The position numbers were made by a program, and so were the translations under genes. DNA of 64,000 bases from an uncultured Anaerolineales bacterium (GTDB taxonomy: Bacteria > Chloroflexota > Anaerolineae > Aggregatilineales > Aggregatilineaceae). Shown here piece after piece: positions 48,635-63,638 of this stretch (positions are counted from its first letter, which is position 1; the number at the start of each line of letters is the position of its first letter). The notes beneath the pieces were generated by a model. It did no database searches, was not told the DNA's origin, and saw only the letters and a list, made by a program, of their open reading frames with translations. The stretch is taken from the NCBI GenBank assembly GCA_937135955.1, contig CAKZOB010000041.1, positions 1 through 64,000 on the forward strand. The letters are read 5' to 3'.

Positions 48635-51598
48635 CTACCCTTCATTGGCAGAAGCTGCGGGTACATTGAACTGCGCCCGCTCCTCAGCGGTCAATTCGCG
48701 CACCCGGCAACAGACGTTGGCATAGCGCAGCAAGTCGTCAGTCGCCTGCCAGGTCTGCCAGACTCGCGCTGTGCCGTCACTGCTGGCCGTCACGCTGTGC
48801 AGGCCGTCTGGCGACCAGGCCACGCTGCGCAGACCGTCGCCGTGTCCTTCCAGCACCAGCAGTTCGTTGCCGGTTGTCGCGTCCCACAGGCGCGCCGTGC
48901 GATCCTCGCTGGCGGTCAGGATGCGCTTCCCGTCCGGCGACCATGCCCCGCTGTTGACGGCGTCGGTGTGACCCGCCAGGGTTGCCAGCAACGCGCCGGT
49001 TGCGGCGTCCCAGACCCTGGCCAGGCCGTCGTCTCCAGTAGTCAAGAGCGCCGCGCCATCGGGCGAGGGCGTCACGCTGAGCACAGCCCCGCCATGTGCC
49101 GACAGAGTCATGACCTCAGCGCCAGTGTCAGCATCCCACAGGCGCACCGTCCCATCGCGCCCGGCGGTGATCAGGCGCGCGCCGTCCGCCGTCCAGGCGA
49201 CGTACTCCACCGTACCAGTATGCCCGCTGAGCGTCAGCACGCTGACGGGCGTTGCACCGCTGATGTCCCAGACGGTCGCCGTGCGCCGCACGGCAACGAG
49301 CAGGCGCGTTTCGTCGGGCGACCAGGCGGCGGCGCTCACCTCGCCGCCCAGGTCAGTCAGGACGAAGACGGGCGAGCCATCCGCCGCCGACCAGATGCGC
49401 ACCTGCCCATCGCCCGTCCAGGTGAGCAGGCGCGTGCCGTCGGCGCTCCAGGCCGCCCCATTGACACGCCCGCTGTGAGACAGGGTGAACGACAGTGCGC
49501 CGGTGACGGCGTCCCATACGCGAGCGGTGTTATCCCACGACCAGGTGAGCACCCGCGCACCATCCGGCGACCAACTCGCGCCGGTGATCCAGCCTTCGTG
49601 CCCGGCCAGCGTGAGCAGTACGTCGCCGGTGCTGGCGTCCCACAGACGCGCCATGCCATCGCGCGACCAGGTGAGGACGCGCGTCCCGTCCGCACTCCAG
49701 GCCGCCCCATTGACCCAATCCGCATGGTGCAGGGTGAGCAAGGCGCTGTCCGGACGGGCGTCCCACAGGCGCGCGCTGCCGTCGTCGGCGGCGGTGAGCA
49801 GGCGCGCGCCGTCTGGCGACCAGACCACATCGTTGACATCGTCGGAATGCCCGCGCACGGCGAAGAGCAATTCGCCCGTGGCCGCATCCCAGACGTAGAC
49901 AGCGCGATCGCGCCCGGCAGTAGCCAGGCGCGCCCCATCCGGAGACCAACAAACGCTGGTGACGGCGTTCACGTGCCCGCTCAAAACCAGTTGTTCGGCG
50001 CTGCCGAGCGCCGACAGCGCCCTATCCGGCTGATTGACTGCCGCGCCGACGTTCCACACCCGCGCCGTCTCATCGGCGCTGGCCGTAGCCAGGCGCGCCC
50101 CGTCCGGCGACCAGGCCACGCGGTTGACCGCGCCGCTGTGCCCTTCCAGCACGGCCAGCAGTTCCCCGCTGGCGGCATTCCACAGACGCACCGTGTTGTC
50201 GCGGCTGCCGCTGGCAAGCAAGCTTCCATCCGGCGACCAGGCCACGCTGCTCACCCAGGCCGTGTGCCCGCTCAGTGTACGCAGTAACGCGCCCGTGCGG
50301 GCATCCCAGACCATCACCAGGGAATCCGCGCCCGCGGTAGCGATCTGCGCCCCGTCCGGCGACCAGGCAATGTCGGTCACCCAGTCCGTATGCCCGACCA
50401 GCGTGAGCAGCGGTTCGCCGGTCGCCACGTTCCACACGCGCGCCGTGCGATCCCAACTGGCAGTCGCCAGACGGGATCGGTCGGGCGACCAGGCCACGCC
50501 AGAAACAGCGGCGGTGTGCCCCACCAGGCGGGAGAGCGGCTCCGGCTCGCTGGCGGCTTCCCACAGGGCTACCGTGTTATCAGCTCCGGCGGTGGCGATG
50601 CGCGCCCCGTCCGGCGACCAGACCCCGCGCAGCACCGCGCCGGTATGTCCGCCTAGGATACGCCGCGCCCGGCTGGCCTGCACCGCCGTCCCCAGGGCGC
50701 GATCGGCCTGCCAGACGTAGGGCAGGCGCTCCAGCGCTTCCAACGCCAGCAGCACCCCGCGTTCCGGATACGCGCCGAACAATTCGAGCTGCGCCTGCGC
50801 CGCCAGACCGATGGCCTGGGCGCGGTTGCGGGCCTCTTCGGCGGCCTGACGGGCGACCAGCGCTTCGGCGGCGTTGGCGTCGGCGCGCTGACGGGCGTCT
50901 TCGGCGCGGACGTACAGCACCAGCGACAGCACCAGCAGCGCCACGATCACAGTGACTACGGCGCTGATCACGGCATTGCGCTGTTGGCGGCGGCGCTGAG
51001 CGCGGCGGCTGGCCTGAATGTACTCAATATGCAGATCGGTAGGTCGGTTGCGCTGCTTGGCCAGGCCCGCGGCCAGCCACTCTTCGGCCTCTTTGAGCGC
51101 ATTACCGCTCAGCAAGAGGCTGCGGTCGCGGCGGCGGTCTTGCCAGTTGCGCGCGCGCACCAGCAGGCGCGTGTGCTCGCGCACGTAAGCCAGGTCGGTG
51201 TCCAGCGCATCGAGCAACGCCCCAAAAGCCCTGTCGAAGTCATCCTCTTCGCGGATAAAAACCCAGTTGTGGGCGTTGATGGCCGGGTGCAGACGCTTTT
51301 CGTCCGCCTCCTCGGTGATGGGGCGGTACAGCACCGGCATGATGCGTTTGTGGTGTTGCGCGGCGTAATCAATTTCTTTGAAACAGGTCACCGAACGCGC
51401 CGAGTCTGGACTGATGACGAACACAAAGGCATCCGCTGCCTCAATGCCCGCGCAGATTTCGCGCCACCAGTCTGCTGAGAGGGGGATATCTTCCCAGTCC
51501 ACCCAGGCGTCGCGGCCATGCGCGGCCAGTGCGTCGTGCAGGCGACGCACGAAGTCGGTGTCTTCGCGCGCGTAGGAGATGAACACTTCGCCCGGCAT
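48635..51598 (-). CDS. Membrane TIR-WD40 protein
   Basis: 987 aa, SD GGAGG before the ATG. The TIR domain (about 1-140) starts FISYAREDTDFVRRL and has the CFKE segment with Glu75 where NAD-cleaving TIRs have their catalytic Glu. A basic region leads to one membrane helix (about 209-230). An Ala-rich coiled coil (about 231-280) and 15 WD40 repeats follow (recognisable by WSPDG/WSADG), enough for two seven-bladed propellers. The TIR end and the propeller would lie on opposite sides of the membrane. Likely role: signalling or a sensor-effector with NADase activity; the target is unknown. Confidence 0.9.
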   Translation of the reverse strand: MPGEVFISYAREDTDFVRRLHDALAAHGRDAWVDWEDIPLSADWWREICAGIEAADAFVFVISPDSARSVTCFKEIDYAAQHHKRIMPVLYRPITEEADEKRLHPAINAHNWVFIREEDDFDRAFGALLDALDTDLAYVREHTRLLVRARNWQDRRRDRSLLLSGNALKEAEEWLAAGLAKQRNRPTDLHIEYIQASRRAQRRRQQRNAVISAVVTVIVALLVLSLVLYVRAEDARQRADANAAEALVARQAAEEARNRAQAIGLAAQAQLELFGAYPERGVLLALEALERLPYVWQADRALGTAVQASRARRILGGHTGAVLRGVWSPDGARIATAGADNTVALWEAASEPEPLSRLVGHTAAVSGVAWSPDRSRLATASWDRTARVWNVATGEPLLTLVGHTDWVTDIAWSPDGAQIATAGADSLVMVWDARTGALLRTLSGHTAWVSSVAWSPDGSLLASGSRDNTVRLWNAASGELLAVLEGHSGAVNRVAWSPDGARLATASADETARVWNVGAAVNQPDRALSALGSAEQLVLSGHVNAVTSVCWSPDGARLATAGRDRAVYVWDAATGELLFAVRGHSDDVNDVVWSPDGARLLTAADDGSARLWDARPDSALLTLHHADWVNGAAWSADGTRVLTWSRDGMARLWDASTGDVLLTLAGHEGWITGASWSPDGARVLTWSWDNTARVWDAVTGALSFTLSHSGRVNGAAWSADGTRLLTWTGDGQVRIWSAADGSPVFVLTDLGGEVSAAAWSPDETRLLVAVRRTATVWDISGATPVSVLTLSGHTGTVEYVAWTADGARLITAGRDGTVRLWDADTGAEVMTLSAHGGAVLSVTPSPDGAALLTTGDDGLARVWDAATGALLATLAGHTDAVNSGAWSPDGKRILTASEDRTARLWDATTGNELLVLEGHGDGLRSVAWSPDGLHSVTASSDGTARVWQTWQATDDLLRYANVCCRVRELTAEERAQFNVPAASANEG

Positions 51599-51959: not shown

Positions 51960-54900
51960 TCAGCGCGTGGGCGGAGGCACGCCGCGTGCCGCCAACCCCG
52001 GCGCGGGCCGCCACGACGGACTGTCGTTCCACGAGTTGGTGGGAGTCATGCGCAGCGGATTGCTACCGTCGGCCAGCATGAGGTAGATCGCGCCGACGCC
52101 GTCGCGGTCGGAGATAAAGGCGATCTGCGTCCCGTCCGCCGACCACTCCGGCCACCAGTCGTTCGATGGCGTCGTCGTCAGGCGGCGTTCGCCCGAACCG
52201 TCGGCGTTGATGACGTATACGTCGAACTGTCCATCGCGGTTGGACTGAAAGGCGATGCGCGTCCCGTCTGGCGACCACGCCGGAAAACCATCGTGGCCGG
52301 GGCTGAACGTCAGGCGCACCACATTGCTGCCGTCCGCATTCATGACGTAAATCTCTTCGTCACCAGAGCGCGAGGAATTGAAAGCGATGCGCGTGCCATC
52401 CGGCGACCAGGCCGGACTGCCGCTATTGGACCCTGGGCCGGTCAGGCGCTGCACGTTGGTCCCGTCGTCGTTCATCACGTAGATTTCGCTGCTCCCATCG
52501 CGGTCGGACGCAAAGGCCAGCCGCGTGCCATCCGGCGACCAGGTGGGGTGATACTCGTTGGCGGGGTGACGGCTCAGGTTGCGCACGTCACTCCCATCGG
52601 CATTCATGACGTAGAGATCGTTATTGCCGTCGCGGTCGGAGTAGAAAGCGATGCGCCCGCTCTCTGGCGACCAGGCCGGGTCGCGATCGTTGCTGGAGTT
52701 GTTGGTCAGGCGGCGCGTCAGGCCGCTTTGCACATTCATGGTGTAGATTTCGCGGTTGCCGTCGCGCTCCGACACGAAGGCGATCTCTCCCGCGCCACCG
52801 CCGAAAGGCGTGGCTGTCGGCGGGCCAGCGGGGGTGACGGTCGGCGGCACGAACGGCGTCGGCGAGGGCAGCACCAGGGTCGGGGGTATGGCGGTGGGCG
52901 GTTGCCCGCCGCCCGCGCCAGCGGGGAGGGCAATGCGGAAACCCAGCACGCCAATGGCATAGTCCGGATAGTTGCCGCCCTGGTAGAACGCCCGCGCATA
53001 GCGCGCTTCGTCGTGCCACGAACCGCCGCGCACATTGTGCATGTTGCTGTAGGGCGGGCCGGAGGGATCGCGCGCTCCGTCGGTCAGTGAGGCGTAATAG
53101 TCGCGCCCGTAATAGTCAGCCACCCATTCCCAGACGTTGCCGGCCAAATCGAGCGCACCTACCCACGACGCGCCGGCGGGGTAGCTGCCGACGGGCTGTG
53201 CATCGCCTGTGCAGCCTGTCAGGTTGGCCAGGGCACAATCGGGCGGGGTGTTGCCCCAGGGATAGACCCAGCCCTCCGGCCCTCGCGCCGCGTATTCCCA
53301 CTGTGCCCCGCTGAGCAGCGTCGCGCCGATCCACTCGGCGAAGGCGGCGGCGTCGAACCACGACACCCACACTACCGGATGGTTGGCCAGGGCCGGGTTG
53401 TCGAAGGCTGTGCGGTCGCGCGGGGGTGCGCACGCGCCCGCGTTGACACAGGCGGCATATTGGGCGTTGGTCACCTCCGTCTGTCCGATCCAATAGGCGC
53501 TCAGACACACCTGACGCACCGGCTTCTCGTCTGCGTCTCCTTCCTCGCTGCCCATCAGGAAGCACCCTGGCGGCACGGCAACCACAGAGATACCCCGATA
53601 ATCGCCCACGATGGGTGTCCAGGCGCGGTTGGCGCTGCCCGCAGGGATCAACGTGGCCTCAGGCGGCGGAGGAAAGATGACCGGCAGCCCTGGTGTGAAG
53701 CTCGGCTCCGGCGACGGCGTGACCGTAGGGGTGCGCGTGGCCGAAGGCATAGCAGTAGGCGTTGGGGAGGGGGTGGCGGTCGGTGTGGCGCTGGGCGTAG
53801 GGGTATCTGTCCAGGCTTTAGCGGTCGCCGTCAGCGCGGCGATGGCCAGCGCCTCGACCGTCGCGGCCAGGTCGGGTGTGGGCGTGTCTGTCCAGGCCAA
53901 CGCTGTCTGCGTCAGCCGCTCGGTTACCAGCGCCTGAGTAGTGGCGGCGATATCGGGCGTGGGCGTGTCGGTCGGGCGCGGCGAAGGCGTGTCGGTCGGC
54001 GTGACCGTTGGGCTTGGCGAAGGGGACGGAGTCGGTGTACTGGTGTCGGTCGCCGTTGGAGAGGGGGTGGCGCTCGCAACAGGTTCGGGCGAAACCAGCG
54101 TTTCCGTCACCTGCAGCACCAGTCCGCCCGCGACGGTCGGCGTCTGGCCCGGCGCAACAGTCGTCGCAGCGGGGGACGGGCTGGCGGAGGAAGTGGACGT
54201 CTCGGTCGCCAACACGACCAGCCCGCCCGCGACGGTCGGCGTCTGGCCCGGCGCAGCAGCGATTGCAGTGGGCGAGGGAGACGGCGTACCGGCTGGTGTT
54301 CTCTTTTCCCCACCTCTCAGGACTAACACTCCCGCGGCGACCACAACCGCCATGAGCAGCACCAGCGCGCCCCATACCAGCGAAACCCGCCCGCGTCGGG
54401 CTGCCTCCTTCGCAGGGTGGGGCGCGGGCGGCGTGCGGCCCGGCGTAGAGGGCGGCGGAGATGGGGGGCGCGACGGGGTGGGGGTGAAACGCGCTGGCGT
54501 TGGGCGCAGTTCCAGCGGGGCGGTGAAGAATTGAGTCTCCTCGTCGTGCGGCTGGCCTGCGCTGGCCTGGGCGAAAGCCTGGGCAAAGGCCGTCACCGTG
54601 GGGAAACGGTCGGCGGGAGACTTGGCCATCGCCCGCGTCAGCGTCGTTGCCAAAGCCGCAGGGAGATCGGGCCGCAACAGGTGCGGCGGCGGGGGTGGTT
54701 CGTTGAGATGCTTGTGCATCAGCCCGTAGGGCGTCGGGGCCTGGAAGGGCACCTGACCGGTGAGCAACTGATAGATCGTCACCCCCAGCGCGTACTGATC
54801 GGTGGCTGGCGTGGGCGGCTCGGCGCGCCATTGTTCGGGGGCCATGTAGAGCGGCGTGCCGACGACCGCGCCGGTGGCAGTCAGAGCGCTGGTGTGTTCG

Positions 54901-55400
54901 AGCAGCTTGGCAATGCCGAAGTCCACCAGAAAGGCGTTGCCCTGGTTGTCGAACATGATGTTGCTGGGCTTGATGTCGCGGTGGATCACACCCTGACGAT
55001 GCGCATAGTCGAAGGCGTCGGCGACCTGACTGAGCAACCGCGCGATCTCGCCCAGCGACGGCAACGGTCTGCCGGTGGCCTGGCGCTGCGCCATGCGGTC
55101 GGCCAGCGTGCCGCCCGTCAGCAGGCGCATGACAATGTAGCTGGTGCCACTTTCCACGCCGTAGTCGTAGATGGGGATGATATGCGGGTGTTCCAGGGCC
55201 GCCGCTGTTTCCGCTTCGCGGGTGAAGCGGGCGACATAGTCAGGATCGGCAGCCAGTGCAGCGGGCAACACCTTGACGGCCACAGCGCGCTTGAGCGCAC
55301 GCTGATAGGCCCGATAGACCGCGCCCATGCCGCCCCGACCAAGCAGTTCCTGCAATTCGTATTGGCCCAACACCTGGCCGGAGAGATCATGCGCGTCCAT
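51960..55400 (-). CDS. Ser/Thr kinase - FGE-like - PD40 propeller protein
   Basis: 1146 aa from the ATG at 55400. Kinase domain (about 14-275): Gly loop GRGGMG 21-26, Lys43, HRDIKPSN from His140, DFG 160-162. A Pro-rich stretch leads to one membrane helix (about 350-375). The roughly 200-residue Thr/Pro region holds internal repeats (APGQTPTVAGGLV twice; a 30-residue TDTPTPD unit). A sulfatase-modifying/FGE-like domain (about 600-825: PPGCFLMGSEEGD, VWVSWFDAAAF, GNVWEWV, VRGGSW) lacks both catalytic cysteines, so it is probably a binding domain. A six- or seven-repeat PD40/TolB-like propeller ends it. Kinase inside, sensor domains outside. Confidence 0.92.
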   Translation of the reverse strand: MDAHDLSGQVLGQYELQELLGRGGMGAVYRAYQRALKRAVAVKVLPAALAADPDYVARFTREAETAAALEHPHIIPIYDYGVESGTSYIVMRLLTGGTLADRMAQRQATGRPLPSLGEIARLLSQVADAFDYAHRQGVIHRDIKPSNIMFDNQGNAFLVDFGIAKLLEHTSALTATGAVVGTPLYMAPEQWRAEPPTPATDQYALGVTIYQLLTGQVPFQAPTPYGLMHKHLNEPPPPPHLLRPDLPAALATTLTRAMAKSPADRFPTVTAFAQAFAQASAGQPHDEETQFFTAPLELRPTPARFTPTPSRPPSPPPSTPGRTPPAPHPAKEAARRGRVSLVWGALVLLMAVVVAAGVLVLRGGEKRTPAGTPSPSPTAIAAAPGQTPTVAGGLVVLATETSTSSASPSPAATTVAPGQTPTVAGGLVLQVTETLVSPEPVASATPSPTATDTSTPTPSPSPSPTVTPTDTPSPRPTDTPTPDIAATTQALVTERLTQTALAWTDTPTPDLAATVEALAIAALTATAKAWTDTPTPSATPTATPSPTPTAMPSATRTPTVTPSPEPSFTPGLPVIFPPPPEATLIPAGSANRAWTPIVGDYRGISVVAVPPGCFLMGSEEGDADEKPVRQVCLSAYWIGQTEVTNAQYAACVNAGACAPPRDRTAFDNPALANHPVVWVSWFDAAAFAEWIGATLLSGAQWEYAARGPEGWVYPWGNTPPDCALANLTGCTGDAQPVGSYPAGASWVGALDLAGNVWEWVADYYGRDYYASLTDGARDPSGPPYSNMHNVRGGSWHDEARYARAFYQGGNYPDYAIGVLGFRIALPAGAGGGQPPTAIPPTLVLPSPTPFVPPTVTPAGPPTATPFGGGAGEIAFVSERDGNREIYTMNVQSGLTRRLTNNSSNDRDPAWSPESGRIAFYSDRDGNNDLYVMNADGSDVRNLSRHPANEYHPTWSPDGTRLAFASDRDGSSEIYVMNDDGTNVQRLTGPGSNSGSPAWSPDGTRIAFNSSRSGDEEIYVMNADGSNVVRLTFSPGHDGFPAWSPDGTRIAFQSNRDGQFDVYVINADGSGERRLTTTPSNDWWPEWSADGTQIAFISDRDGVGAIYLMLADGSNPLRMTPTNSWNDSPSWRPAPGLAARGVPPPTR

Positions 55401-55778: not shown

Positions 55779-55808
55779 TTGACAGACTATTGTCAATTTT
55801 CCTACACT
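55779..55808 (+). promoter_or_regulatory. WXG100 operon promoter with operator-like palindrome
   Basis: TTGACA (55779-55784), an 18-bp spacer and TACACT (55803-55808) form a promoter. The -35 is one arm of the inverted repeat TTGACA-N6-TGTCAA (55779-55796), a natural place for a repressor dimer. The leader of about 140 nt contains a GGGCAG/CTGCCTG hairpin near 55872-55891. The regulator is unknown. Confidence 0.65.
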
Positions 55809-55952
55809 GAACTCAGTCATGCCGGATAGTTACACAAAGGAGGGATGGGCCAGACGTCACATTTGCACCTTCGGGCAGGGCATCTCTGCCTGACAACTGC
55901 GCGAAGGTAGTCCGCGAGATCGCGCATCAGAGAATCGCAAAGGGAGGTTGAT

Positions 55953-56261
55953 ATGCCTTTCATGGGGAAGATTCAGGCCGACTACGACGAGTTGGCCGCC
56001 ATCAGCAATGAGTTTCTGCAAGAAGCAGCGGGCGTCGAGCAGCTCACCACCCAGATCATGAACCTGGTAGGCCAACTGGAGAGCGGGGGCTGGATCGGGC
56101 GCGGAGCCGATGCCTTTTACAACGAGATGCACGATCTGGTCGAGCCGGGCTTGCAGCGTCTGGCGCGCGCCCTGGAAGATGCGGGCAACGCCGTCCGTCA
56201 GATCAGCAACATCGTCTCGCAGGCCGAGCAGGAAGCCAGCTCGCTCTTTGGGCGACGTTGA
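55953..56261 (+). CDS. WXG100-family protein 1 (WIG motif)
   Basis: 102 aa, SD GGGAGG. Two helices are joined by the hairpin motif GGWIGRGADAF with W47-I48-G49, the defining mark of ESAT-6/WXG100 proteins. The second helix continues into a polar tail (SQAEQEASSLFGRR). No signal peptide. Such proteins form small helical dimers that are exported by, or help drive, type VII secretion. It is the first of four genes with a shared promoter. Confidence 0.9.
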   Translation: MPFMGKIQADYDELAAISNEFLQEAAGVEQLTTQIMNLVGQLESGGWIGRGADAFYNEMHDLVEPGLQRLARALEDAGNAVRQISNIVSQAEQEASSLFGRR

Positions 56262-56275
56262 CGGAGTCGGGAGTG

Positions 56276-56295
56276 GGCGCGCTTAAGCTCGCGCC
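56276..56295 (+). other. Intercistronic hairpin between WXG100 genes 1 and 2
   Basis: GGCGCG (56276-56281) and CGCGCC (56290-56295) form a 6-bp stem with an 8-nt loop 18 bp before the next ATG, short of the GGAGG SD. It could affect mRNA stability or the ratio of the products. Confidence 0.35.
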
Positions 56296-56313
56296 AACGA
56301 CAAGGAGGTCACT

Positions 56314-56610
56314 ATGCCAGACGTACAAATGGATTATGACCTGATGGAAGATATGGCCCGCCTCTTCCGTGAGGGCGCTCAGCACATGGAAGACCTGCGG
56401 CGTTCCATGCAGAATATCGCTTCCAGGCTGGAAGACGGCGCTCTACTGGGTCGGGGGGGCGACGCACTTGCCCAGGCGCTGCGCAACAATCTCAATTCGC
56501 GGATCGCAGCCTTGCAAGACAAACTGGAAGAACTTTCGATGGACGTGTACGGCGCGCTGGTTGACCTGCGCGATGGCGACACGGAAGCCGCCAGCCGGTT
56601 CAAGGGCTAA
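56314..56610 (+). CDS. WXG100-like protein 2 (W replaced by L)
   Basis: 98 aa, SD AAGGAGG. It starts MPDVQMDYD, like protein 4 (MAEVSMDYD), and ends with the same ELSMDVYGALVDLRDGD pattern. The WXG position is L44-L45-G46 in DGALLGRGGDA; the aromatic residue is lost, yet the Gly and helical-hairpin pattern remain. It is probably the partner subunit of a WXG100 heterodimer. The next gene starts 14 bp after its stop. Confidence 0.85.
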   Translation: MPDVQMDYDLMEDMARLFREGAQHMEDLRRSMQNIASRLEDGALLGRGGDALAQALRNNLNSRIAALQDKLEELSMDVYGALVDLRDGDTEAASRFKG

Positions 56611-56623
56611 AGCGAGGTGAGCC

Positions 56624-56947
56624 ATGTCGATCTTTAGCTGTGTCATGGGTGATGTACAGGATGTGGTCAACCAGGTGATCCAGCAGGCCAACCTGGTGGA
56701 AGAGGTCGCCGGGGGCATCCGCAACGGCATGAACCCCATCGTGGGCGGTGCCTGGACGGGCCAGGGCGCGCAGGCGTTCATCCAGGAAGTGCAGACGCGC
56801 CTGATCCCCGAAATCATGGCCCTGATCGCGTCCATCACGGGTTTTGGCGGCGGCATTACCTCGGCGCTGGACATTGTCCAGCAGGCCGATAACGATGTCT
56901 TCAACGTCGTCGGCCAGGTCACTGACATCTTCGACTCGATCTTCTAG
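56624..56947 (+). CDS. WXG100-family protein 3 (WTG motif)
   Basis: 107 aa. The WXG motif is exact: W44-T45-G46 in GGAWTGQGAQAF, flanked by two helices. It differs in sequence from protein 1 and has a hydrophobic Gly-rich stretch (TGFGGGITSALDIV) before the last helix. It lies between two members of the W-less paralog pair, which suggests 1+2 and 3+4 pairing. Confidence 0.9.
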   Translation: MSIFSCVMGDVQDVVNQVIQQANLVEEVAGGIRNGMNPIVGGAWTGQGAQAFIQEVQTRLIPEIMALIASITGFGGGITSALDIVQQADNDVFNVVGQVTDIFDSIF

Positions 56948-56998
56948 CGCCAGCGCCACGGCGGAGCGCATATCAAGAGACCTAAGAAGGAGGATGAT

Positions 56999-57292
56999 AT
57001 GGCCGAAGTATCCATGGATTATGACGCCGTGCAGCGTATGGCCGACGGATTCAGAAACTCTGCCGACACGTTGCAGGCGGTGAGCCGGGCGCTCGAAGTA
57101 GCCATTGCCATCCTGAAAGCCTCGGCTTTCCTGGGGCTGGTGGGCAATATGGCATTGGCGCACTATCTGGAAGGGATCAAACCCAACGTGGATCGCCTGG
57201 CGGCAACTTGCGAAGAGCTGAGCCTGGACCTTGTCGGGGCGATCATCAGCCTGCGCGATGGGGACTATTCCGGCTCGCAGCGTTTCGTCTAG
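56999..57292 (+). CDS. WXG100-like protein 4 (W replaced by F)
   Basis: 97 aa, SD AAGGAGG. It is a paralog of protein 2 (MAEVSMDYD start; ELSLDLVGAIISLRDGD end). The hairpin position reads F44-L45-G46 in SAFLGLVGNMA. It ends the WXG100 operon; the terminator follows 27 bp later. Confidence 0.85.
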   Translation: MAEVSMDYDAVQRMADGFRNSADTLQAVSRALEVAIAILKASAFLGLVGNMALAHYLEGIKPNVDRLAATCEELSLDLVGAIISLRDGDYSGSQRFV

Positions 57293-57319
57293 ACTGTGCC
57301 CTGTGCGCACAAGACCGCG

Positions 57320-57358
57320 ACTGGCGCTCGCCCAAACGGGAGGAGCGCCAGTGTTTTT
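57320..57358 (+). terminator. Rho-independent terminator of the WXG100 operon
   Basis: ACTGGCGCT (57320-57328) and AGCGCCAGT (57344-57352) form a perfect 9-bp stem followed by GTTTTT. Together with the promoter at 55779 it delimits a four-gene transcript of about 1.5 kb. Confidence 0.9.
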
Positions 57359-58422
57359 CAGCCCAGCAACGCCGAGAGCATGATCAACACGACCGTCGCC
57401 AGGGCGAGCAGGACCACCGCGATCAGGATGCGTCGGTTGATGGAGCGTTTCTTTTCCGGCGGGACTTCGCCGAACTTGGTGCGCAGCAGCTTGGCAAAGG
57501 CGCGCACGTCCTGGTAACGTTGCTCCGGCGCGCGCTGAATGGCCATATGCACGATCTGCTGAATGTCCTCGGCCAGGTCGGTGCGTTCCAGAGGTTCGAT
57601 GGCCCCCCCCACCACTTCCTGGCGCACGTCGGCATCCTTGCGCTGAGCGAAACGAAACGCCGGATGCCCCGCCAGCATTTCATAGAGCAATAGTCCCAAT
57701 CCGTAGACATCGGCAGCATACCCCACCGGCCCGTCGCGGGCGATCAGTTCCGGCGGCGTATAGGCGGGCACGGCGAACTTCTGCACCCAGTCTGGGTCAA
57801 CGCCCCCTGGTTCGCCCAGCAGCCCCAGGTCGAGCAGCAGCGGGCGCGGAATGCCTTCTTTGTCCATGCGGACATAGATGGCATCTGGATTCAGATTGAG
57901 GTGCAGCGCGTTGCCCTTCAGATGCATGAAGGCAATCGCATCGGCCAGGCTGATCGTCAGCCAGGCCGCGTGCTGATACCACGGCTGCGGGTTCTGCAAC
58001 AGCAGGTCGCGCAGGAACTCCCCTTCGACGTGCGCGAACACTTCGTAATACTTGCTCTCGTCCCGAAAGACTGTCTTGCCATAGGGGCGCTGCCGGAGGT
58101 CCAGTTGACGGTAGGCGGGCAACAATACCGGTAACATGGGGTGTTGCTGCGCCGACAACCCCAACAACACGCGCGCTTCGCGGCGCAGCAGGTCCTGGCA
58201 ACCAGGGTGCGCCACCTTCAACAACACCGGCTGCCCGTCGCGCTCGGCTTCGTATAGGGCTGCCGTGCGCAATACGCGCAACAGGCGCACGATCTTGATG
58301 TCGCCCAGCCATTCGCCATAGTCGAAGATCAGCGGCATGTTGCCTGCCGGGCAGTCCGGCTCCTGGCACCACAGATTGCCGTCAACGGACACGCGCTGGC
58401 AGACCGTGCAGATACGCTTCAC
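57358..58422 (-). CDS. Tail-anchored pseudokinase of the type VII-like locus
   Basis: 354 aa from a GTG at 58422. An N-terminal zinc-ribbon-like pair (CTVC, Cys5/Cys8, with Cys19 and Cys24) precedes a kinase fold. Lys69 (VLLKVA), an alphaC Glu near 82 and DLG (198-200) remain, but the HRD-KxxN motif reads HLNLNPDA (174-181), so the catalytic Asp is Asn176 and the fold is a pseudokinase. The last 25 residues are one membrane helix (ILIAVVLLALATVVLIML), a tail anchor. EssB/YukC, a core component of Firmicutes type VII systems, is also a pseudokinase with one membrane helix; that likeness is a proposal, not a sequence match. Confidence 0.82.
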   Translation of the reverse strand: MKRICTVCQRVSVDGNLWCQEPDCPAGNMPLIFDYGEWLGDIKIVRLLRVLRTAALYEAERDGQPVLLKVAHPGCQDLLRREARVLLGLSAQQHPMLPVLLPAYRQLDLRQRPYGKTVFRDESKYYEVFAHVEGEFLRDLLLQNPQPWYQHAAWLTISLADAIAFMHLKGNALHLNLNPDAIYVRMDKEGIPRPLLLDLGLLGEPGGVDPDWVQKFAVPAYTPPELIARDGPVGYAADVYGLGLLLYEMLAGHPAFRFAQRKDADVRQEVVGGAIEPLERTDLAEDIQQIVHMAIQRAPEQRYQDVRAFAKLLRTKFGEVPPEKKRSINRRILIAVVLLALATVVLIMLSALLG

Positions 58423-58516
58423 AGCCTCGCTCCCTGTGCGCAGTCTCTGGCGGGACTCTGCTCACGCCAGAGACGTGACGGACGCGAAAAAGGCGGGATG
58501 GCCCCCTTCATCAGTT

Positions 58517-58545
58517 AAGGTACAGCGTTCTCGGATTTGTGTCAA
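58517..58545 (-). promoter_or_regulatory. Promoter of the pseudokinase gene
   Basis: On the minus strand TTGACA (58540-58545), a 17-bp spacer and TACCTT (58517-58522). It faces away from the FtsK gene in a 211-bp divergent region. Confidence 0.65.
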
Positions 58546-58584
58546 ACGCTATTTCAAAATCCGGCATTCGACCTCAGCCTGTTG

Positions 58585-58590
58585 TATAAT
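58585..58590 (+). promoter_or_regulatory. -10 element of the FtsK-like gene
   Basis: A perfect TATAAT lies 43 bp before the ATG at 58634. No good -35 box is found at 16-18 bp, so an activator or divergent control with the pseudokinase promoter is possible. Confidence 0.45.
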
Positions 58591-58633
58591 GGGCTTAATC
58601 ATTACTGCTCCGCCAGTTCCGGAGAGCTGCCCC

Positions 58634-61600
58634 ATGCCTGAGTTCACCAACCGTCCCCCCCGCATTCAGCCCGAACTACCCTATGGCGAGGTGACGATCC
58701 CTTCCCCACCCAGTTCGGAAACGGGCAGCCGTCAGCAGTTGATTCAGGTCGCGCTGCCGATGATCACCATCATCGGTTATGTGATTGTCAGCGCCAGCGG
58801 CCAGGGGCGCAGCCTGTTGTTGCTGATCCCCATGGGCTTATCGGTCGTCGCCTCGACGACGGTCGCGCTGATCGCCTTTGCCCGCGCCGCCCGTGAAGAA
58901 GCGGAGAAGAAACGCGCCTACATCCAGCGATTGGGCGAGCTGCGCAAAGAAATGAGCGCGTCGCACGACATTCAGCGCCGCTTCTACCTGTACAACTACC
59001 CCGAACCGGACACCGTGCTACAGATCGCCAGCGACCGCCAGAACAGGGTCAACGGGCTGCGGCTGTGGGAGCGGCGCACAACCGATAGCGACTTCGGCGT
59101 GATCCGCCTGGGCATCGGCACGCGCCCCTCCACGGTGCGCTATGTGCTCAGCACTGGCGCGGCGGACGAAGATTCGCCGTTGATGAAAGACGCGCTCAAG
59201 CTCCAGGAAGACTCGCGCTTTGTCACCGACGTGCCGATCACCATCCCCCTGCGCCAGTACGAAAAACCCGACGCTCTGCATACTGCCCAGGAAGACGAAG
59301 AAGATGGACAGGAAGCGCGCAAAAGCCCGGCCATGAAGGGGGCCGAAGCGCGCTTCGCCCTGGGCATTGCGGGCAAACACCGCGCCGAGACCTATCACTT
59401 TGTGCGGGCCATGATGGCGCACTATGCCGCTTTCCACGCGCCCACCGACGCGCGGCTCTATGTGGTCGGCTCGCCAGAGGCACGCGCGGAGTGGGAGTGG
59501 GCGCGCTGGCTGCCGCACTGCAACACGTCGCGCAATCAGCAGGGCACGGGCGATCAGCTCTGTTTTGCCAGGGACAAAGTCCGCCGCTTCTGGGACGACC
59601 TGCAGGTGGAACTGGAACGGCGGCAATTGCGCCTGGCCGACCGGGATAACAGCACTGATCCCACCCTGCCTCATCTACTGGTGGTGGTGGACGGCATGGA
59701 CGGCTTCGGCGAGAACTCACCGCTGGCCGAGGTGCAGGCCGAGGCCGCCGTCTCGATCCTGCTCACGCAGGGGCCACGGCTGGGCGCGTCTATTGTCTTC
59801 CTGGTGCCCGACCGCAGCCTGATCCCCAGCGATTGCCGGGCGCTGATCGAGGTCGAGCGCGTGGAAAACGGGCGCGTGGCCTTCCGCTACGCCGAGGTAG
59901 GCGTCAATACGCTGCGCTATGTGGGCACGGCGGATCAACTGGATGCCGTCCGCGCCGAGCGCGACTTCGCCCGCAAGCTGGCTCCACTGGCCGTGCGCAC
60001 CACCTACGGCGCAGACCTGGCCACCGCTGTCAACCTGCTGGAGATGAACGCTGTCGAGACCGTCGAACAAATCCCCATCCTGGACAACTGGCGGCGCAGC
60101 CGGCAGCCGGAAAACGCCGAATGGCTGAGCGTGCCGATTGGCCTGATGCCAGGCAACAAGGTGCGCGAACTCAAGTTCTCAGCGGATGGCGACGGGGTGC
60201 ACGGCATGATCGCTGGCACGACCGGCTCCGGCAAGTCCGAATTGCTGCTGACGCTGATCGTCGGGCTGGCCATCAAGTATGACCCCAGCGTGGTCAACTT
60301 CGTGCTGGTGGACTACAAAGGTGGCGCGGCCTTCGAACCGTTTCGCACGCTGCCGCACTGCGTGGACATCGTCACCAACCTGCAGGGCACGGCGGGGGTG
60401 CGCACCTTCACCGCGCTGCGCTCCGAACTCAACCGGCGCAGCAAGCTGATCGCCGATACCAATGTCAAGCACATCGTGCACTATCGCCAGAAGGGGCTGC
60501 ATCTGACGCACGAACCGTTCCCCTTCCTGTTCATCATCGTGGACGAGTTCGCCGAGATGGTGAAGGAGAATCCGGACTTCAAGGCGCAGCTCGATAGCAT
60601 CACCCGTCTGGGGCGCGCGCTCGGCGTCTCGCTGATCACCGCCACGCAGCGCCCGGCGGGCGCGGTCACCGATCAGATGCGCGCCAACATGAAGTTCCGC
60701 ATCTGCCTGCGCGTCGAGACGATGGAAGACAGCCGCGAACTGCTGCGCCGCTCCGACGCCGCCTTCCTGCCGCCCAACATCCCCGGTCGCGCCTATTTGC
60801 AGGTGGGCAACGAGAATGTCGAACTGATGCAGGTCGCGCGGGCGGGCGGCCCCTACACCGGCCCGCAGATTGACGCCGAGCCGCCGGTGATCTGGCTCAA
60901 CCGACAGAAGCGCACCGCCGCCCAGGCGCGTCCGGCGGGGCCGTTGCAGGAAGCGCCAGCGCTGTCCGACGTGCTGGTGGAGATCATGCATCGTCTGGCC
61001 GAGGACAACCCCGACGTAGCCAAACAACGCAAGCCCTGGCCCGATCCCCTGCCCGCTTACCTGCCTCTGCACGCCACGCAGATCAAGGGCGAAGACCAGG
61101 CCGACCCGCTGCTGCCGCTCAATCCGGCGGTGCTGGCCTGGCTGGAAGGGCGGGGCGGCTGGCGCGGCATCAACTGGGCGACCGAGGCCATGCGCGCGCC
61201 CGTGGGCCTCATTGACAACCCCATCCGCGCCGAGCGTCTGCGCCTGACGCTCGACCTGACGCGCGGCCACGCCGTGATCTTCGGCGCGTCGGGCTGGGGC
61301 AAGACGACCTTCCTGCGCACGGTGATCACCAGCCTGGCCGCCACTCACTCGCCGGACGAACTGCACGTCTATATCCTGGACTTTGGCGGGCGCGGCCTGG
61401 ACGTGCTGGAAGCGCTGCCGCACCGCGCCGCCTCGATCCTGCCGTCGGAAGAAGAGCGCGTGCAACGCCTGTTGCGCCGCCTGGAAAGCATCCTGGAGGA
61501 GCGCAACCGCATCCTCAGCCAGGCGCGCGCCGACAACCTGAGCACCTATAACGCCAACAACCCCGACAAGGTGCTTCCGGCGATTCTGGTGGTGCTGGAC

Positions 61601-62893
61601 AACTTCGCCGAGTTCAAAGAGAACTACGAGAACCTGATGGAGTCGCTGATCGGCATTGCCCGCGAGGGACGCGCCTATGGCGTGCACCTGGTGGTCACCG
61701 CCGATCAGTCCAACGCGCTGCCGGGCAAGCTCTACAGTCTGTTCACCGAGCGCCTCACGCTCAAGCTGGCGGACAAGGCCGAATACGCCAACATCGTGGG
61801 GCGTGGCGTGCCGGGCATTGACGACATTCCGGGGCGCGGCTTCGTCTCGGTAGAACGCAACCCGCTCGAATTCCAGACGGCCTTGCCGGTAGGCATCACC
61901 GAAGAAGAAGAGGCCGAAGGGCTGGACGAGACGGTCAAACTGGAGCAATTCGCGCAGTTGCTGGCCAGCGCCTGGTCGGGCAAGCGCCCCGAAGGCATTG
62001 ACGTGCTGCGCGAGATCATCCCGCTGCGCAGTCTATTACCTCCGCTGGGCCAGGGGCCGGAGCGCGTGCAGACCATCCTGGGCGTGGAAGACCTCAACCT
62101 GGAACCCGCCCTGCTCGACCTGCAACAGCGCGGCCCTCATTTCATCGTCATCGGCCCGCCACTGTGTGGTAAGACCACTGCGCTGCGCTCGTGGGTGATG
62201 GCCCTGGCTCATAGCTACCCGCCAGAGCGCGTGGCGATGGTGCTGATTGACTTTCAGCAGCGCTTCTTCAAGTATGGTGGCAAGCACACCCTGGGCGATC
62301 TGCCGCATGTGTTGGCGACAGTATCGGAAAAAGAGGGCATGGCGCAGGTGCTCAAAAACCTGCAATACGAGTACAGCGCCCGCCCGCCCGACCTGCCCAG
62401 GCCGGAGATTTTCGTCATCGCCGACAACTACGACGACTTCACCAACGTGCTTGGCCCGGCCACCCGCGCCACCGAATACCGCGACCTGGCCGAACTCGCT
62501 CGCAAGTATGGGCCGGAGGGGTTGCACGTCGTGCTGTGCGGCTCGCTGAGCATCATGCGCTCGATGGACGATCTGGTCAAACAGGTCGTCGCGCCGCGCT
62601 ATGGCCTGGGGCTGGATTCGTCCGACGCGCCCAGTGCGTTGGGCGGGCGCGTGCGCGGCGGCGGAGACGAGTTCCCGCCAGGGCGCGGCTATGTGGTCAA
62701 GGCCGGGCGGCTCTCGCTGATCCAGACGGCCATCCCGCACGACGAAAGCGATCTGGAAGGGTCGCTGGATCGCTGGGTGGCCGAGATCGCCAGTCACTAC
62801 CCGCAGCGCGCCCGTTGGTATATCGAGATCAACCCGCCGCCCGAACCAGAACCGGCTGAAGCCGCCGAGAAGACCGGCGCGCCGGCGAAGTGA
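58634..62893 (+). CDS. FtsK/SpoIIIE-type secretion ATPase, EssC/EccC-like
   Basis: 1419 aa from the ATG at 58634 (GGAG upstream; the longer ORF from 58337 runs through the promoter). Two membrane helices at about 36-54 and 60-84 precede a linker domain and three FtsK-type ATPase modules: Walker A GTTGSGKSE (about 527), GASGWGKTT (about 882) and GPPLCGKTT (about 1173). Walker B regions are LFIIVDEFAEMV, AILVVLDNFAEF and EIFVIADNYDDF; only the first is fully canonical. This layout is that of EssC/EccC, the motor of type VII secretion, without the N-terminal FHA domains of EssC. Confidence 0.93.
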   Translation: MPEFTNRPPRIQPELPYGEVTIPSPPSSETGSRQQLIQVALPMITIIGYVIVSASGQGRSLLLLIPMGLSVVASTTVALIAFARAAREEAEKKRAYIQRLGELRKEMSASHDIQRRFYLYNYPEPDTVLQIASDRQNRVNGLRLWERRTTDSDFGVIRLGIGTRPSTVRYVLSTGAADEDSPLMKDALKLQEDSRFVTDVPITIPLRQYEKPDALHTAQEDEEDGQEARKSPAMKGAEARFALGIAGKHRAETYHFVRAMMAHYAAFHAPTDARLYVVGSPEARAEWEWARWLPHCNTSRNQQGTGDQLCFARDKVRRFWDDLQVELERRQLRLADRDNSTDPTLPHLLVVVDGMDGFGENSPLAEVQAEAAVSILLTQGPRLGASIVFLVPDRSLIPSDCRALIEVERVENGRVAFRYAEVGVNTLRYVGTADQLDAVRAERDFARKLAPLAVRTTYGADLATAVNLLEMNAVETVEQIPILDNWRRSRQPENAEWLSVPIGLMPGNKVRELKFSADGDGVHGMIAGTTGSGKSELLLTLIVGLAIKYDPSVVNFVLVDYKGGAAFEPFRTLPHCVDIVTNLQGTAGVRTFTALRSELNRRSKLIADTNVKHIVHYRQKGLHLTHEPFPFLFIIVDEFAEMVKENPDFKAQLDSITRLGRALGVSLITATQRPAGAVTDQMRANMKFRICLRVETMEDSRELLRRSDAAFLPPNIPGRAYLQVGNENVELMQVARAGGPYTGPQIDAEPPVIWLNRQKRTAAQARPAGPLQEAPALSDVLVEIMHRLAEDNPDVAKQRKPWPDPLPAYLPLHATQIKGEDQADPLLPLNPAVLAWLEGRGGWRGINWATEAMRAPVGLIDNPIRAERLRLTLDLTRGHAVIFGASGWGKTTFLRTVITSLAATHSPDELHVYILDFGGRGLDVLEALPHRAASILPSEEERVQRLLRRLESILEERNRILSQARADNLSTYNANNPDKVLPAILVVLDNFAEFKENYENLMESLIGIAREGRAYGVHLVVTADQSNALPGKLYSLFTERLTLKLADKAEYANIVGRGVPGIDDIPGRGFVSVERNPLEFQTALPVGITEEEEAEGLDETVKLEQFAQLLASAWSGKRPEGIDVLREIIPLRSLLPPLGQGPERVQTILGVEDLNLEPALLDLQQRGPHFIVIGPPLCGKTTALRSWVMALAHSYPPERVAMVLIDFQQRFFKYGGKHTLGDLPHVLATVSEKEGMAQVLKNLQYEYSARPPDLPRPEIFVIADNYDDFTNVLGPATRATEYRDLAELARKYGPEGLHVVLCGSLSIMRSMDDLVKQVVAPRYGLGLDSSDAPSALGGRVRGGGDEFPPGRGYVVKAGRLSLIQTAIPHDESDLEGSLDRWVAEIASHYPQRARWYIEINPPPEPEPAEAAEKTGAPAK

Positions 62894-62990
62894 GGGGTCT
62901 TGAGCGAAGGACATCTGGCAGAGCAACTCTCGCAGTGCGGCTATAACTCATGACTCATAGCTCGTCACTCACAACGCTACAGAGGAAGCC

Positions 62991-63638
62991 ATGGATCGCG
63001 TCATCCTGACCATCACCTCCGAGCTATTCGACGAAGCGGATCGCCGCCAGGAAGTGTCGGTGCGCGCCAACCTGACCGTGCGCGCGCTCATCGAGGAGAT
63101 TCGGCGCGAGTTCAACCTGCTAGACGCCGGCTATCGCCTGACCCTGGCCGGGCAGCGCGAGCCGCTCCCACTCGACCGTACCATGGAGCAGCTCGGTTTG
63201 CAGACAGGTGCAGAACTGGTCTTCGCCCGCGACCGACATCGCCTGGATCAACGGGTGATCGCCCGCGGCGGTCAGTACTTCGAGCCGGTCAGTCAGCCGG
63301 GGCGCGCCTTCCTGCGCGAGGCAGCCTCCGGGCAGGTGTTCACCATTGACTGGCAACCGGCAATCATCGGGCGGCCCGATGCGGCCAACCCCATCACTGC
63401 CCAGGCGCTGGCGGTAGATGTCAGCACCCTGGCCGAGGGGCGCACTGTCTCGCGCCGTCACGCGCAGATCACCGAGCGGGGCGGGACGTACTACCTGGAA
63501 GCGCTCAACGAGCGCAACCCCACTCTGCTCAACGGGCAGCCGCTGACGTTGGGCGAACGGCGCGCGCTCTCGCCCGGCGACAGGATTCGCGTGGGGCTGG
63601 TGGAGCTGGAGTTTGGGATGCAGGGCCTGTCGTCCTGA
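62991..63638 (+). CDS. YukD-like ubiquitin fold fused to FHA domain
   Basis: 215 aa. Residues about 1-80 form a ubiquitin-like fold of the YukD/EsaB type (VILTITSELFDEADRRQEV, then AGYRLTLAGQREPLPLDRTM). Residues about 105-210 are an FHA phosphothreonine-binding domain (IIGRPD, VSRRHAQI, NPTLLNGQPL, SPGDRIRVG). EsaB/YukD are small accessory parts of type VII systems, and EssC carries FHA domains; here both are joined in one protein next to the FHA-less motor gene. It is co-directional with the motor gene across a 97-bp gap. Confidence 0.9.
   Translation: MDRVILTITSELFDEADRRQEVSVRANLTVRALIEEIRREFNLLDAGYRLTLAGQREPLPLDRTMEQLGLQTGAELVFARDRHRLDQRVIARGGQYFEPVSQPGRAFLREAASGQVFTIDWQPAIIGRPDAANPITAQALAVDVSTLAEGRTVSRRHAQITERGGTYYLEALNERNPTLLNGQPLTLGERRALSPGDRIRVGLVELEFGMQGLSS

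Follow-up and report, generated by a model that had tools for sequence, protein, structure and literature searches.

A conserved seven-gene locus of Chloroflexota, the probable core of a type VII secretion system with an unusual set of parts

Nearly all detailed work on type VII secretion systems (T7SS), best known from tuberculosis bacteria and staphylococci, concerns Actinomycetota and Bacillota, and the papers that we found do not lay out the machinery of Chloroflexota. Of which parts would such a system consist in a third phylum? The question is raised by the 64,000 nucleotides (the window) with which contig C41 begins in the 4.28-Mb, 93-contig genome assembly (G000) of an uncultured Anaerolineales bacterium. 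Seven genes fill positions 55953 to 63638 at its right end, with a core set that spans less than 8 kb, and all of them were found where the original prediction had placed them: four tandem WXG100-family genes (WXG1 to WXG4), a pseudokinase gene, a gene for an EccC/EssC-type ATPase, and a gene for a fusion of a YukD-type ubiquitin-like (Ubl) domain with an FHA domain (Table 1). In the broad sense, a type VII system comprises an EccC/EssC-type membrane ATPase and at least one WXG100 protein encoded alongside, both of which the locus has, and exports that protein in an ATPase-dependent manner, as is predicted here. We conclude that the locus very probably supplies a type VII secretion system of Chloroflexota with its core, because the ATPase scores above the cut-offs of EccCa and EccCb, WXG1 passes the WXG100 cut-off, and WXG4 has a predicted EsxA/EsxB-like fold, and because the ordered set recurs in relatives, pseudokinase and EccC co-occur, and two genomes split the module in complementary ways. 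The system is most likely a phosphothreonine-controlled exporter of folded WXG100 pairs, a variant so far undescribed, with export as its predicted function.

A profile search with the seven proteins placed the ATPase above the cut-offs of EccCa (528.7 bits; cut-off, 509.2) and EccCb (374.1 bits; cut-off, 346.6) and slightly below that of EssC (762.2 bits; cut-off, 778.4). The original prediction had named a grouping with chromosome-partitioning FtsK/SpoIIIE proteins as grounds for giving up the secretion reading, and such a motor is ruled out: the EccC/EssC models gave 374 to 762 bits against 72 for the FtsK translocase model, and the best solved relatives were 4nh0, YukB, and EccC5. Of these, 4nh0 was deposited as an FtsK/SpoIIIE-family protein, which we take to be an EccC. 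The list of open reading frames gives a longer frame for this gene, and we chose the start that corresponds to the N-terminus conserved in relatives. The protein comprises two transmembrane (TM) helices (residues about 36 to 80) followed by the domains D0 (236 to 455), D1 (470 to 790), D2 (800 to 1130), and D3 (1131 to 1400), and a library scan found no FHA domain in it. D1 is intact (Walker A, GTTGSGKSE; Walker B, VDEF), and both D2 and D3 read DN at Walker B. As D1 alone has an intact Walker B motif, one active motor is expected.

The four small proteins conform to the WXG100 family to different degrees. WXG1 exceeded the WXG100 cut-offs; WXG2, WXG3, and WXG4, each taken alone, fell below the curated cut-off, WXG2 with 27.0 bits against 27.3 for PF06013. 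The WxG hinge is kept in WXG1 and WXG3 only, reads GALLG in WXG2, and is lost in WXG4. An alignment of orthologues separated WXG1 to WXG4 into four orthologous families, in which the hinge Trp is kept in WXG1 and WXG3, most WXG2 rows read GAL[LV]G, the hinge is missing from WXG4, and conserved C-terminal tails are found on WXG2 and WXG4. A failure of the small proteins to fold as helical hairpins, the other outcome named as damaging to the secretion reading, did not appear in the weakest match: AlphaFold2 modelled WXG4 as a helical hairpin (H8-44/H48-86; confidence score [pLDDT], 84), and the 20 best Foldseek matches to the model were all of the EsxA/EsxB type (E 0.05 to 0.4; TM-score about 0.7 to 0.8 for most). 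By the definition of the family, a hairpin of about 100 amino acids with a WxG hinge, WXG1 and WXG3 are WXG100 proteins, and WXG2 and WXG4 are derived members, WXG4 by its predicted fold. From the way in which hinge and tail are divided among the four proteins, WXG1+2 and WXG3+4 most likely form two heterodimers, each with one hinge partner and one tail partner; in EsxA/EsxB, too, the tail is on one partner. Beyond these four genes, the WXG100 model detected just one further gene in the genome, a stand-alone paralogue of WXG1 (L003 16875-17183; G000:C42:276875-277183), and no other type VII gene was recognised in the stretch of its flanks that was read.

The gene set extends well beyond this genome. 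The nearest relatives are Anaerolineae metagenome-assembled genomes with ATPases that are 95% and 88% identical, and the ordered set of WXG1, WXG2, WXG3, WXG4, pseudokinase, EccC, and Ubl-FHA recurs across many Anaerolineae and in a second class, in answer to a check proposed when the locus was first described. The organisation, initially called unusual, is so as a set of parts, but it is not peculiar to this locus. In near relatives, EccC, WXG1 to WXG4, the pseudokinase, and Ubl-FHA are about 80 to 99% identical. Of 396 genomes searched in the class, 32 matched the profile of the pseudokinase and 32 had an EccC of the window type, assigned by identity and N-terminal coverage, with both in 29 (Fisher P about 3e-37, the kinship of genomes being ignored), and the two co-occur even on different contigs. 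Two of the three genomes with a pseudokinase only are less than 80% complete, and the third has a weak match (E 3.5e-42).

Around EccC, the genomes of relatives repeatedly encode vWA-TM-FHA proteins, PP2C phosphatases, further kinases, proteins with a WXG-type N-terminus, and a protein of about 270 amino acids. The WXG-N-terminal proteins (289 to 453 amino acids; N-terminus of the WXG1 type) are putative substrates. The protein of about 270 amino acids, modelled from 11 sequences (pLDDT 86), is predicted to have an EspG fold: its 17 best Foldseek matches were EspG chaperones, and VIA Z was 15 to 18 to EspG versus 4.8 for the next unrelated chain. Two such proteins were scanned and had no Pfam match, several are encoded directly beside a WXG-N-terminal putative substrate, and homologues were found in 11 of the 14 family genomes searched. 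Judged by this fold, EspG/EsaE-type chaperones would be present in relatives only. Long WXG-N-terminal proteins together with a predicted EspG-fold partner, as carried by relatives, are what a dedicated export system would be expected to have.

The pseudokinase has a single conserved C-terminal TM helix (residues 332 to 350 in the window protein) and is thus tail-anchored, as proposed. It retains the Lys of VAIK and, in the form DLG, the Asp of DFG; the catalytic Asp of HRD is replaced in every orthologue (HLNLNP in the window protein), and the core kinase is predicted from its sequence to be catalytically inactive. Nearly all members also have an N-terminal CxxC...CxxxxC zinc-ribbon-like motif. 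The suggestion that this protein represents EssB/YukC had to be abandoned: all 19 orthologues examined matched Pkinase and none matched YukC, the best solved relatives of the profile were PknB structures, and the EssB/YukC model (PF10140) had no match in the genome, with a control match in B. subtilis. The likeness to EssB/YukC is partial, in that the protein is membrane-anchored and kinase-like but lacks the outer domain and belongs to another sequence family.

The Ubl-FHA protein confirms that the FHA and ubiquitin parts have been recombined, as the FHA domain is found on the Ubl protein and not on the ATPase. Its YukD-type domain scored 25.1 bits, slightly below the cut-off of 27, and the phosphothreonine-binding residues of the FHA domain (G127 R128, S154 R155 x H157, and N176) are at least 90% conserved in the family. 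The FHA domains of T7SSb EssC have lost such residues, whereas those of T7SSd/e retain them (PMC11217815). The kinase encoded divergently from the WXG operon (Table 1) has intact VAIK, HRD, and DFG motifs; its type stays beside WXG1 to WXG4 in L006 and in G600, a genome of the same genus, and it may be the sensor kinase of the system. Elsewhere in the genome (C55:61254-66197; L074 11254-16197), a vWA-TM-FHA protein of 977 amino acids and a PP2C-TM-SH3 phosphatase of 668 amino acids with metal-site motifs are encoded together, beside divergent ABC-transporter-like genes. The description of the locus as a type VII variant stands, but since these two proteins belong to the module, the system is less minimal than it was first described to be. 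In G600, one contig carries the divergent-type kinase, WXG1 to WXG4, and the pseudokinase, and another carries vWA-FHA, PP2C, a kinase, EccC, and Ubl-FHA, with vWA-FHA and PP2C flanking the ATPase gene. One and the same module is thus divided differently in the two genomes, and this links all of its parts. With the FHA binding residues conserved and the kinase and PP2C motifs intact, phosphothreonine gating is plausible, although we infer it.

How might these parts work together? EccC, with two TM helices and D0-D1-D2-D3, would form both membrane pore and motor, in which D1 would hydrolyse ATP and the non-catalytic D2 and D3 would receive substrate. WXG1+2 and WXG3+4 would be exported as folded heterodimers in a predicted ATPase-dependent manner. 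Ubl-FHA would use its Ubl domain to dock on the base of the ATPase and its FHA domain to bind phosphothreonine, and the membrane-anchored pseudokinase would act as an assembly scaffold, the role of EssB in T7SSb. The phosphorylation state, and with it the gating of the machine, would be controlled by the active kinase, the PP2C phosphatase, and the vWA-TM-FHA protein, which extends out of the cell. Among the proteins encoded near EccC in relatives, the only recurrent polytopic membrane proteins are an ABC-transporter group found in three loci, and a pore of EccC and single-pass partners is therefore assumed. Only tentatively do we advance the full proposal, in which the conduit is EccC with single-pass helpers alone and no equivalent of EccD/EccB or EsaA/EssA, a kinase/PP2C/FHA phosphothreonine gate is read by Ubl-FHA, and the motor evolved by repeated duplication of D1-D2.

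The EccC chains of relatives have the form N-D0-(D1-D2)n-D3, where n is 1 in the window type, 2 in L014 (2198 amino acids), and 3 in L015 and most others (about 2850 to 2975 amino acids). Every D1 copy fetched whole keeps active-ATPase motifs (in the second class, the second copy has IDEY as its Walker B), and the D2 copies are without the catalytic Glu. In trees, three groupings of copies follow lineage, one of them (L014/L015) within the window's own clade, suggesting that n increased in Chloroflexota on three or more independent occasions or that copies were homogenised within lineages. An assembly artefact is unlikely, as identity within a chain is 61 to 85% for D1 and 44 to 58% for D2 and as assemblies with 3 to 7 contigs (G110, G634, and G641) also contain the long frames. 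The ATPases of the newly described subtypes have four NTPase domains (PMC11217815). If the units of one chain fill one ring, n of 1, 2, and 3 would let hexamers, trimers, and dimers build the same six-motor ring; alternatively, rings might be stacked into a longer channel. Native ATPases with one, two, and three motors would allow testing how translocation by EccC is linked to its consumption of ATP.

Could the system belong to a subtype that is already known? In a tree of D0-D1 with Streptomyces/Nonomuraea EccC and Enterococcus EssC as references, the window clade (28 rows) was monophyletic with full support and a long branch, apart from both references. Other Chloroflexota EccC groups (L048 to L066) have the standard four NTPase domains, and one group (L057, L058, L060, L063, L064, and L066) clustered with the EccCs of Streptomyces/Nonomuraea, so that several type VII lineages exist in Chloroflexota. 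Published descriptions of T7SSc to T7SSj cover Bacillota and Actinomycetota alone (PMC11217815), and Chloroflexi are mentioned in passing as carriers of WXG100/ESX genes (PMC3935865, PMC4010439, PMC10765036, PMC3482391). A literature search, with most subscription papers outside it, found no description of the gene set, the Ubl-FHA fusion, or a multi-unit EccC.

By its parts list the system comes closest to T7SSc, and by pseudokinase topology to T7SSh, both compared by description only, and it is possible, if rather unlikely, that it is a member of one of these subtypes that spread to Chloroflexota. T7SSc (Paenibacillus and Brevibacillus; Garrett et al. 2024, PMC11217815) shares an FHA-less EccC-type ATPase, a Ubl protein, a membrane kinase-like protein (TscD), a vWA protein (TscE), a PP2C-type phosphatase (TscF), and an EspG-like chaperone (TscG), the last here only in relatives of this genus, so that the family-wide parts list corresponds almost one for one. 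T7SSh (Paenibacillus; PMC11217815) also has an FHA-less ATPase, and its kinase-like TshM, as described, has the topology of our pseudokinase, with a single C-terminal TM helix and no outer domain. Both subtypes, however, have a single WXG100 protein and a stand-alone Ubl protein, whereas here four WXG genes are ordered and Ubl is fused to FHA, and T7SSh adjoins Tad pilus genes. TscD keeps its active site, whereas the core kinase here is inactive by sequence, bears a zinc ribbon, and lacks an outer domain; TscE is cytoplasmic, whereas the vWA protein here is membrane-spanning, predicted outside, and joined to FHA. The repetition of the D1-D2 pair in relatives is a further difference, and the fully supported, long-branched ATPase clade also speaks against membership, in a tree whose sequences included none of T7SSc or T7SSh.

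T7SSb (S. aureus Ess and B. subtilis Yuk) resembles the system in its EssC-like ATPase, Ubl, membrane pseudokinase, FHA domains, and WXG100 proteins, but here the pseudokinase is of the PknB and not the YukC type, no EssB/YukC is present, and the ATPase, with TM helices that start about 35 residues in, has no N-terminal FHA pair. As predicted, the window has no EsaA-like gene; the best that a genome search gave was 28.8 bits (cut-off, 122) at C55:11990, at a distance from both loci, a match that we rejected. With T7SSa/ESX of mycobacteria the system shares an EccC without FHA, WXG100 genes in adjacent non-identical pairs, and, in relatives, a predicted EspG-fold chaperone; Ubl, however, is on a soluble FHA protein here and on EccD there. 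EccB, EccD, EccE, and mycosin were not recognised in the locus, EccE and MycP not having been searched for, and the EccB and EccD models matched neither this genome nor any control genome. A conserved system in a third phylum separates the common parts (EccC, WXG100, Ubl, and the EspG fold) from those that differ between systems (EccB/D/E versus EsaA/EssA/EssB versus pseudokinase and vWA-FHA), and its seven core genes in less than 8 kb are a compact set for reconstitution.

Several points weigh against a working exporter of the kind proposed. No EspG homologue was found in G000 or G600, the two genomes of this genus among the 14 searched, and the WXG100 model found no long WXG substrate in the own genome. 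No polytopic subunit recurs nearby, unlike EccD or EsaA; the phosphothreonine partner of the switch is putative, the pairing of the WXG proteins is drawn by analogy, and export by Chloroflexota systems is here a prediction from genes. The first two points, and the division of the machinery genes over two loci, would also suit a genuine EccC/WXG apparatus that has lost secretion in this genus and is retained as a complex for signalling or envelope stress. We consider such a reduced relic improbable, since EccC, WXG1 to WXG4, the pseudokinase, and Ubl-FHA are intact and similar to those of near relatives and D1 keeps its catalytic motifs. That the ATPase is a DNA translocase of the FtsK/SpoIIIE or conjugation type beside unrelated small helical genes, as its match to the generic Pfam FtsK_SpoIIIE family might suggest, is scarcely credible given the bit scores, the WXG100 fold, the conserved linkage, and two other FtsK-family matches in the genome (C83 and C91).

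Table 1. Positions of the type VII genes and associated features (window coordinates unless a locus is named)
Feature	Position	Strand	Description	Basis
WXG1	55953-56261	+	WXG100 protein, intact WIG hinge	PF06013 E 2e-12; TIGR03930 62.6 bits
WXG2	56314-56610	+	WXG100-like; hinge W replaced by L (GALLGRG); conserved C-terminal tail RDGD..A.SRF	PF06013 E 5e-6
WXG3	56624-56947	+	WXG100-like; WTG hinge	PF06013 E 3e-4; TIGR03930 E 4e-6
WXG4	56999-57292	+	Predicted WXG100 fold without hinge motif; conserved C-terminal GD..G...RF tail	AlphaFold2, Foldseek
Pseudokinase	57358-58422	-	Zinc-ribbon-like N-terminus, kinase fold, C-terminal TM helix	PF00069 E 1.6e-13
EccC/EssC-type ATPase	58634-62893	+	1419 amino acids	Profiles, solved relatives, motifs
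Ubl (YukD-type) and FHA fusion	62991-63638	+		FHA E 3.6e-13; YukD E 3e-5
Probable accessory kinase	51960-55400	-	Ser/Thr kinase, TM, FGE-sulfatase, PD40 propeller; divergent from WXG operon
Promoter-like site of WXG operon	55779-55808	+	TTGACA-18-TACACT	10/12 consensus matches only
Palindrome	55779-55796		TTGACA-GACTAT-TGTCAA; overlaps -35 box of WXG operon	Read from sequence
Terminator-like hairpin	57320-57358	+	G+C-rich, ACTGGCGCTC...GAGCGCCAGT then TTTTT; between convergent WXG4 and pseudokinase genes
Predicted EspG-fold proteins	L028 5064-5873; L022 3209-4015; L020 21428-22300; 8 more
EccC with two or three D1-D2 pairs	L014 1437-8033; L015 8987-17530; L020 9992-18727; L022 5524-14307; L028 7406-16216; others

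That the four WXG genes have a promoter and a terminator of their own, as claimed originally, agrees with the features in Table 1, the promoter by consensus matches only. Four promoter-like sites were found where 1.6 were expected by chance, and the one of the WXG operon begins exactly at the left edge of the region first noted. The palindrome over its -35 box is a possible operator. A general terminator scan missed the hairpin behind WXG4, probably owing to its loop; folded separately, the hairpin was better than shuffled sequences (z -2.5). Elsewhere in the window, a gene on the reverse strand (48635-51598) appears to encode a TIR-like N-terminus joined to a WD40-repeat C-terminus.

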